A stretch of DNA of 64,000 nt, taken from a bacterium BMS3Abin02 (GTDB taxonomy: Bacteria > Actinomycetota > Acidimicrobiia > Spongiisociales > UBA4744). Position 1 is the stretch's first letter. Each line of letters begins with the position of its first letter. Where the stretch lies: assembly GCA_002897675.1 (NCBI GenBank), contig BDSU01000039.1:1-64000 (forward strand), in the 5' to 3' direction. The position numbers were made by a program, and so were the translations under genes. Positions 45,499 to 46,719 of this stretch are shown here, piece by piece. The notes under the pieces were generated by a model, which saw nothing but the letters and a program-made list of their open reading frames with translations, searched no databases and was not told where the DNA came from.

Positions 45499-45530
45499 GA
45501 ACGAGACGGTAGTGCCCAGTCGGTCGTCAG

Positions 45531-45631
45531 TCGTCGGTCGCCGGTGGTCAGTCGTCAGTGGTCGAAGCGTTCCCAACAAGATGACACTGCGTCAACCGCT
45601 GATGACCGAGAACTGAGGACTGAAAACCAGT
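45531..45631. repeat. Heptad-type intergenic repeat, copy C
   Basis: Six contiguous 7-mers of form GTCGTCA/GTSGYCR (45533-45574), core AAGCGTTCCCAACAAGATGA, then inverse-complement heptads TGATGAC, CGAGAAC, TGAGGAC. Best-preserved copy. In the 375-base gap between the SDR gene and the small zinc-finger gene; 45632-45752 shows nothing recognised, and 45753-45847 holds promoters. Confidence 0.65.
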
Positions 45632-45754
45632 GGCTGCACTTCACTGTGGGTGTTCTCACCAAATGCTTAGCAAGCCTTCACTCCTTGTTCATCTTCGTAG
45701 GGCACACTGATCACAGAGATCGGGTTGAGGAATCCCGAGAGCGCGAAAGAACGG

Positions 45755-45847
45755 GGAACAAAAACACCATTCCCAACGTATTAATAGGTGAAATACCCGG
45801 GAACCTCAGGTAACGTACCGGGAACAAAACTCGGACCGCCAACGTTG
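45755..45847 (+). promoter_or_regulatory. Two tandem ECF-sigma-like promoters
   Basis: GGAAC at 45755-45759 and CGT at 45777-45779, then GGAAC at 45821-45825 and CGTT at 45843-45846. In both the spacer is 17 bases and begins AAAA, and both end CCNAA before CGT. This matches the GGAAC-N18-GTT form of SigR/SigH- and SigE-type promoters. The second would start about 20 bases before the ATG at 45874. No such sigma gene is in the window. Confidence 0.5.
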
Positions 45848-45873
45848 ACAGAGGTTCGAGGACGGAGGCCACC

Positions 45874-46068
45874 ATGGCAGACACACTGAAAGGCGCAAGA
45901 CTGAAGGGCGGGATCCGGCCTTCCCGCAAGTACGGAGAGAACCGCGTGTGCGCACACAAGGGCTGCCATACACGCCTCTCCATGTACAACCGACGCGAGT
46001 ACTGTTTCACCCACGCTCCCGTCAGGTTCCCGAGAGTACGAGGACGGGTCGTCCCCGAAAGCACCTGA
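45874..46068 (+). CDS. Small zinc-finger-like protein
   Basis: 64 residues, basic, with a metal-site pattern C26-x4-C31-x12-C44-x2-H47 (CAHKGCHTRLSMYN...YCFTH). The GCxTxLSxYN...CxxH arrangement is a short zinc-binding motif seen in actinobacterial regulators; here it stands alone with Arg-rich tails. GGAGG upstream. It is the first gene after the tandem ECF-like promoters and is followed by a terminator, so it forms its own unit. Function unknown. Confidence 0.65.
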   Translation: MADTLKGARLKGGIRPSRKYGENRVCAHKGCHTRLSMYNRREYCFTHAPVRFPRVRGRVVPEST

Positions 46069-46115: not shown

Positions 46116-46147
46116 GAGGCCCCGGAAGTCCCCTCCTCCGGGGCCTC
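46116..46147 (+). terminator. Rho-independent terminator after the zinc-finger gene
   Basis: 11-bp stem GAGGCCCCGGA / TCCGGGGCCTC with a 10-base loop, followed within a few bases by CTTTT. Separates the small gene from csoR. Confidence 0.7.
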
Positions 46148-46202: not shown

Positions 46203-46508
46203 GTGAAAGAAGACCACAAGCGCAACGCACTCAACCGGCTCAAGACGATCAGAGGCCATCTCGACGGTGTCATAGCGATGGTCGAAGGAGACCGATACTG
46301 CCCGGACGTGATGAAACAGGTCTCCGCGCTCCAGGCCTCCCTGGAACGAGTAAACAGGATCGTCCTCCAGAATCATCTCGAGACCTGCGTCGCCGACGCC
46401 TTGCGGGAGAACCGTGCCGCAGAGATCATCGACGAGCTGATGGAGACGATGAAGTACACCGCGGCAGTCACCGGACCGGCGCCCACACTCGATCTGGAGA
46501 TCCAATGA
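46203..46508 (+). CDS. csoR: CsoR-family copper-sensing repressor
   Basis: 101-residue four-helix protein of the CsoR/RcnR family with the copper ligands Cys33, His58 and Cys62 in the expected C-H-C spacing, ending in a helix with many acidic residues. GTG start, leaderless geometry (TAGGGT six bases before). It heads csoR-copZ-copA, overlapping copZ by four bases. The two target genes it should control are broken. Confidence 0.88.
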   Translation: MKEDHKRNALNRLKTIRGHLDGVIAMVEGDRYCPDVMKQVSALQASLERVNRIVLQNHLETCVADALRENRAAEIIDELMETMKYTAAVTGPAPTLDLEIQ

Positions 46509-46719
46509 CCACCCTGACCTTGAAGGTTCCCAATATTTCCTGCGGCCACTGCAAGACGTCGATCGAGGGTGCGGTCGCCCCCCCCCTCCCCGGGGTCGAG
46601 TCCGTCGAAGTGCACATCGAACCGCGGACGGCGACATCACATGGGATGATTCGGCGCTGAACCTCGATACGATCACGGAAGCGATTGAGGACCAGGGCTA
46701 CACAGTCGATCATGCCTGA
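46505..46719 (+). pseudogene. copZ: CopZ-like copper chaperone, frameshifted
   Basis: Frame 1 from ATG 46505 gives MTTLTLKVPNISCGHCKTS with the HMA metal site CxxC, then after RTA at about 46630 drops out of register. The remaining C-terminus (DITWDDSALNLDTITEAIED, then QGYTVDHA) is intact in another frame and ends at TGA 46717-46719. One missing base near GGCGAC (46630-46634) explains this. The end overlaps the copA start. Confidence 0.8.

Follow-up and report, generated by a model that had tools for sequence, protein, structure and literature searches.

A deeply conserved zinc-finger-like micro-protein is a candidate target of the SigR/RsrA thiol-stress module

A 64-residue protein encoded in the window (the whole 64,000-nucleotide stretch of DNA analysed here, contig C39 of the 2.5 Mb genome G000) appears, from sequence comparison, to belong to the SigR/RsrA module, as a target or a component that is deeply conserved and undescribed. 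This module is the textbook switch for thiol stress, and most of what is known of it comes from Streptomyces, mycobacteria and corynebacteria. We draw this conclusion because the protein family is conserved, because promoter boxes precede the gene, and because the gene is linked to sigR-rsrA. An initial annotation of the region had described the protein and its promoter candidates; the sigR-rsrA linkage, a copper neighbourhood and the order-wide conservation go beyond it.

Table 1. Positions in the window of the micro-protein gene, its promoter candidates and adjoining features
Feature	Position	Strand	Details
Box 1, upstream ECF-type promoter candidate	45755..45780	+	GGAAC-N17-CGTA
Box 2, main SigR/SigH-type promoter candidate	45821..45846	+	GGAAC-N17-CGTT
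Ribosome-binding site ahead of the micro-protein ATG	45864..45868	+	GGAGG, from sequence
64-aa micro-protein ORF	45874..46068	+	C26-x4-C31-x12-C44-x2-H47, basic N and C tails
Terminator-like element between the micro-protein gene and csoR	46116..46147	+	strong GC hairpin, then CACCCTTTT
CsoR/RicR-type copper repressor gene	46203..46508	+	NF052430, 53.6 bits, below cut-off of 175

Results

The micro-protein family

The open reading frame and the two GGAAC-N17-CGT boxes described in the initial annotation are both present in the window (Table 1), and the C-x4-C-x12-C-x2-H site that it noted between basic tails proved to be a property of the family, being invariant across 66 aligned sequences along with R24, Y38, N39, R56 and G57. 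The net charge of the window protein is +11, and the median over 107 rows, near-copies included, is +9 (minimum +4). A protein search found a homologue in 59 of 59 relatives, the named ones being mostly Acidimicrobiia metagenome assemblies, and of 246 genomes chosen from the whole phylum, 61 had a match to the family profile. Most copies read are stand-alone proteins of 60–69 residues. No family model matched the window protein over its cut-off, the search of solved structures by sequence returned a single match at chance level (E 0.33), and phage and plasmid records held no match. A first AlphaFold model built on 18 sequences was poor (pLDDT 66), and a second built on 66 sequences was modest (pLDDT 79.8, pTM 0.45); the latter predicts an extended chain without helices, with confidence lowest at the N-terminal and extreme C-terminal residues, and neither the PDB nor the viral structure libraries gave a match to it at E 0.001.

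Several more distant copies were also observed. The window's own genome carries a second, divergent copy (G000:C28:1415-1591; 51% identity), with no box found in the 250 nt upstream of it. In one distant relative (L230) the Cys3His finger lies in a longer ORF that also has a further Cys-rich segment and a stretch resembling, by eye, a helix-turn-helix, and 18 IMG/VR viral contigs (L248-L265) encode relatives of the finger with 38–52% identity over parts of the protein.

Promoter boxes upstream of the gene are conserved

The boxes start 66 nt apart, and CCAA closes the spacer in both, as expected from the near-identical spacer ends reported initially. The M. tuberculosis SigH consensus is given as GGAAYR-(N17-18)-GTT in the part of PMC4803200 available to us; box 2, which had been said to match the SigR/SigH consensus spacing, fits every position specified there, and box 1 deviates in the −10 element, at its final base. 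Transcription from box 2 would start ∼20 nt ahead of the ATG. Judged merely as sequence patterns, the boxes are weak: the window contains six matches to GGAAC-N16-18-CGTT versus 1.65 expected, a count reached in 1 of 100 shuffles, and a looser pattern occurs 22 times versus 12.4 expected. Their significance comes instead from their conservation among orthologues.

Conservation of the boxes in relatives, which the initial annotation had proposed as a check, was evident when we examined the 140 nt ahead of the start in 75 orthologues, 56 from the order and 19 from two families of another class, for a strict box (GGAAC-N16-18-CGTT) and a loose box (GGAA[CT]-N16-18-CGT[TC]). The strict box was found in 34 of the 75 regions versus 0.27 expected from dinucleotide shuffles, and the loose box in 49 versus 0.93, although rows within one family are kin and hence not independent events; among 801 control windows of the same loci, none had the strict box and three the loose one. 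By family, loose boxes were found in f1 (5/5), f2 (8/8), f3 (2/8), f4 (0/5), f5 (1/6), f6 (7/8), f7 (6/8), f8 (6/8), f16 (10/15) and f51 (4/4). The remaining two boxes of f7 lie farther upstream than 140 nt, no box was found in two f8 genomes (L092, L095), and look-alikes of the form GGAAA/TGAAA-N18-CGTT, spotted after the fact, occur in 8 of 11 f4 and f5 genomes. Within f1, box 2 is kept in all five genomes and box 1 in three (L001, L003, L004), with CGTA or CGTC; box 1 was not found in L005 and L006. The count left out three relatives, G015, G052 and G053, whose matches are all of paralogue type. It also left out seven loci from other families, one with a loose box (L056) and six without (L058, L059, L062, L065, L067, L068).

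The gene follows sigR-rsrA in three families, with a box inside rsrA

In all 24 genomes of f2, f7 and f8, rsrA lies directly upstream of the micro-protein gene on the same strand and a DUF2342 gene lies downstream; two of these rsrA genes (L088, L095) were missed by tblastn and detected by HMM. Where the linked loci were read, an ECF sigma gene stands ahead of rsrA and tilS, named by eye, follows DUF2342. The gene adjoins rsrA in f15 and f11 too, and two genomes outside the order but within the class (L172, L169) have the rsrA-gene-DUF2342 arrangement. Beyond the class, the gene stands ahead of DUF2342 with rsrA absent there. The window's own genome has a SigR/RsrA pair on another contig (G000:C11), followed directly by DUF2342 and tilS without a micro-protein gene. 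This sigR scored slightly below the cut-off of its family model (TIGR02947, 249.5 versus 251.55 bits) and the rsrA clearly below (TIGR03988, 49.9 versus 62.5 bits), with HxxxCxxC present; the RsrA cut-off was exceeded in 11 of 59 relatives.

The linked genomes carry a box near the end of rsrA itself, GAA-CTN ... [AG]CG-TTN, coding EL....[AT][LF]. Of the 24 linked rsrA genes, 21 have it (f2, 7/8; f7, 8/8; f8, 6/8), versus 0.25 expected from the codon usage of the same loci, whereas all 23 rsrA genes examined in genomes with the micro-protein gene elsewhere lack it. The Ile directly after the box uses the rare codon ATA in 15 of 16 cases, versus a background of 5.9%. In L093, an f2 locus without the embedded box, GGAAC-N17-CGTT lies between rsrA and the micro-protein gene instead. 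Because these codons are held fixed in most linked rsrA genes and the box is absent from unlinked rsrA, there is strong evidence, from codon choice, that the box inside rsrA acts as a functional element serving the micro-protein gene.

Scope of the putative regulon

With regard to membership in a SigR/SigH (ECF12-type) regulon, a consensus promoter is present, and a cognate sigma factor and ZAS anti-sigma pair is encoded in the same genome. The control by an ECF (SigR/SigH-type) sigma factor postulated in the initial annotation thus gained support from the conservation of the boxes and from the position of the gene behind sigR-rsrA in every genome of f2, f7 and f8, and a SigR-type sigma factor very probably regulates the gene. 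The linkage and the match to the consensus point to SigR itself as the user of the box, and another ECF sigma factor may take this part.

A wide regulon with this consensus was not seen, because the box is seldom present at trxB (3 of 25 loci) or msrB (3 of 25 readable loci out of 30). Two msrB genes of one genus (L297 of G038, L298 of G044) have GGAAC-N17-CGTTGATA ∼92 nt upstream and are likely SigR targets; SigH controls msrB directly in M. tuberculosis, according to the portion of PMC4803200 available. These two sites were found by a CGTTRATA search with an N16-17 spacer, a spacing that does not cover the boxes embedded in rsrA. A GGAACTTTT-N13/14-CGTT search of 59 genomes returned 15 sites, 13 of them at the micro-protein gene. 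In the window's own genome the strict SigH consensus occurs at two sites, box 2 among them, and nine further sites of a related pattern all lie inside ORFs. Ahead of sigR, no box was found within 480 nt in any of 46 rows, a few of which offered little sequence upstream.

The copper neighbourhood

Of the 32 genomes of f1 and f3-f6, 28 have csoR or copA beside the micro-protein gene; the two share a strand in f1, f3 and f4 and are divergent in f5 and f6. The order downstream in the window is micro-protein gene, hairpin, csoR, copZ and copA. The hairpin folds with −25.7 kcal/mol (z −5.55), similar hairpins occur in L004, L005 and L006, and the output of a consensus scan did not include it. In a tree of 61 proteins the copper-linked rows form one group inside the rsrA-linked ones, which fits a single move of the gene, although support for the group (84/90, from few columns) is not firm.

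Two further observations concern the surrounding DNA. Between 46507 and 48890, copZ and copA appear frameshifted. The reading frame of copZ is lost behind a run of C near 46580, and pieces of copA lie in several frames, versus a 726-aa copA (L142) in the close relative G001. These look like assembly indels or real decay. Short GTCGTCAGTCGTCGGTC-like repeats lie at 45519–45566, ahead of the start of an SDR gene.

Discussion

Sequence comparison establishes the family, its invariant site, its synteny and the conservation of its promoters. From the zinc site, the net charge of +11 and the invariant arginines, we infer zinc binding and a binding partner, and the most likely role for the protein would be that of a zinc-dependent stress effector that binds nucleic acid, the ribosome or RNA polymerase. 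As a whole, a zinc micro-protein of the thiol-stress response acting on RNA, the ribosome or RNA polymerase is probably the best explanation of the data. According to the available portions of the sources, SigR/SigH regulons include the zinc ribosomal protein gene rpmE (PMC4803200) and "ribosome modulation" functions (PMC4921905).

In the mechanism that we propose, RsrA would release SigR upon thiol oxidation, and possibly upon copper stress too. Copper attacks the same thiol and zinc sites as thiol oxidation, and the copper neighbourhood fits a protein that is important when thiolate-zinc sites are attacked. SigR-RNA polymerase would transcribe the gene from GGAAC-N17/18-CGTT, and the product would fold around one metal ion through C26, C31, C44 and H47. 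R24 and R54-x-R56-G57, all invariant or nearly so, would then act with the charge of +11 while the cell recovers, in binding RNA, the ribosome or RNA polymerase. Ancestrally the gene would have stood between rsrA and the DUF2342-tilS pair, and in the window's branch it would have moved beside copper-efflux genes and retained its promoter type.

The main alternative is a redox-regulated holdase like the mycobacterial protein Ruc, inactive and zinc-bound when reduced, in which oxidation would eject zinc and expose disordered basic tails for holding unfolded proteins. Rv0991c/Ruc offers a precedent, described in the portion of the source available as a zinc protein of small size whose tail is disordered and whose expression depends on SigH, and the micro-protein gene has the same promoter type and predicted terminal residues of lowest model confidence. 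However, the C3H site with its 4/12/2 spacing differs from the four-cysteine N-terminal domain of Ruc, and conserved basic tails that are short (∼17–25 residues), together with the invariant arginines, suit a specific ligand better than promiscuous clients. We regard a holdase as unlikely.

Less likely still is a buffer or donor of zinc or copper(I) that takes up metal displaced from RsrA or other thiolates, or that protects against copper. Copper protection would account for the position of the gene beside copA/csoR in the window's branch, and both the frequency of such neighbours, on either strand, and a tree consistent with one move agree with it. Three cysteines, however, provide one metal site only, the terminator-like hairpin before csoR and the divergent arrangement in f5 and f6 argue against co-transcription there, and the rsrA-DUF2342-tilS context is larger and older.

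Equally doubtful is a regulator of the module itself, such as a partner of RsrA, SigR or, in the manner of RbpA, RNA polymerase. The invariable position directly after rsrA in f2, f7 and f8 would suit such a regulator, the N-terminus (M..xLKGxR) resembles by eye the N-terminal tail of RbpA, and RbpA was found in none of 39 relatives. However, an hhalign comparison with the RbpA alignment covers 11 columns (P 0.013, probability 3.3%), the gene is uncoupled from sigR in five families, and most of the 246 genomes lack both RbpA and the micro-protein family, with three genomes having the two together, which is no clean replacement. A replacement of RbpA by the micro-protein was accordingly rejected, the N-terminal likeness being not significant. 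In the three genomes with both proteins (f28) the RbpA-like match begins at profile position 19 or 20. The sole such protein read (L178, G100:C186) is RbpA-like without the N-terminal tail motif, and its family has an RbpA-like protein and 2–6 micro-protein family matches per genome.

A last reading denies the boxes a promoter function: the box inside rsrA would reflect conservation of the coding sequence, and those between genes would be due to chance or be bound by some other regulator. We consider it very improbable. In its favour, the element is nearly confined to the micro-protein gene (13 of 15 matches of one form), unlike a regulon-wide promoter, and spacers are partly conserved inside families; against it, codon choice in linked rsrA is held beyond the amino acids, unlinked rsrA genes lack the box, and the intergenic forms share −35 and −10 letters and spacing, differ in their spacers and match the published SigH consensus.

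Returning to the effector acting on RNA, the ribosome or RNA polymerase, its boldest form would make the micro-protein a dedicated third component and main output of SigR-RsrA, with a promoter inside the anti-sigma gene, a redox switch at its metal site and a direct action on RNA polymerase or the ribosome. We consider this form a long shot; if true, thiol stress would alter the transcription or translation machinery itself, beyond repair genes. The presence of the protein in all 59 sampled relatives, and of its gene after rsrA in three families with a promoter seemingly set within the rsrA coding sequence, points to an unstudied output of the SigR/RsrA switch, and a protein of 64 residues offers a simple test bed for metal-thiolate micro-proteins under oxidative stress.

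Comparison with known systems

The EsV-1-7 cysteine motif (PF19114) and CxC6 (PF18721) matched weakly over the Cys/His stretch (best E among 18 members, 0.0023 and 0.0072), with the window protein scoring 15.4 and 14.2 bits, below the curated cut-offs of 25 and 27.5. PHROG 10853, a 93-position profile of phage proteins, was matched by 17 of 18 members (best E 5.7e-05), with the match spanning ∼30 residues of the window protein. RbpA (PF13397) is likewise a small actinobacterial protein with a short N-terminal resemblance, but the micro-protein has no match to that family and the profile comparison was not significant.

Ruc (Rv0991c), a SigH-dependent small zinc protein and redox-regulated chaperone in the available part of PMC7448276, is alike in being a small zinc-type protein of the same type of stress regulon. 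It is described there with a four-cysteine site and a long disordered C-terminus, whereas the 64-aa micro-protein has a C3H site and short, conserved basic tails. The initial view that the function of such proteins is undescribed is qualified by Ruc, a SigH-dependent small zinc protein whose function is described. For the micro-protein itself, our limited searches of the literature on the SigR/SigH consensus, RbpA, EsV-1-7, Acidimicrobiia zinc fingers, genes behind rsrA, Ruc, and copper together with SigR found no description, absence from print being unproven.

SigR-RsrA of Streptomyces and SigH-RshA of Mycobacterium and Corynebacterium share with the loci described here an ECF sigma and zinc anti-sigma pair and GGAA..GTT promoters. 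The difference is that here no box was found ahead of sigR, and a third conserved gene follows rsrA, whose coding sequence contains the promoter candidate of that gene. For C. glutamicum, the available part of PMC3489674 describes a separate promoter of rshA, under SigH control and inside the sigH-rshA operon; the linked loci would add a case in which a sigma-factor promoter seemingly constrains the codons of its own anti-sigma gene.
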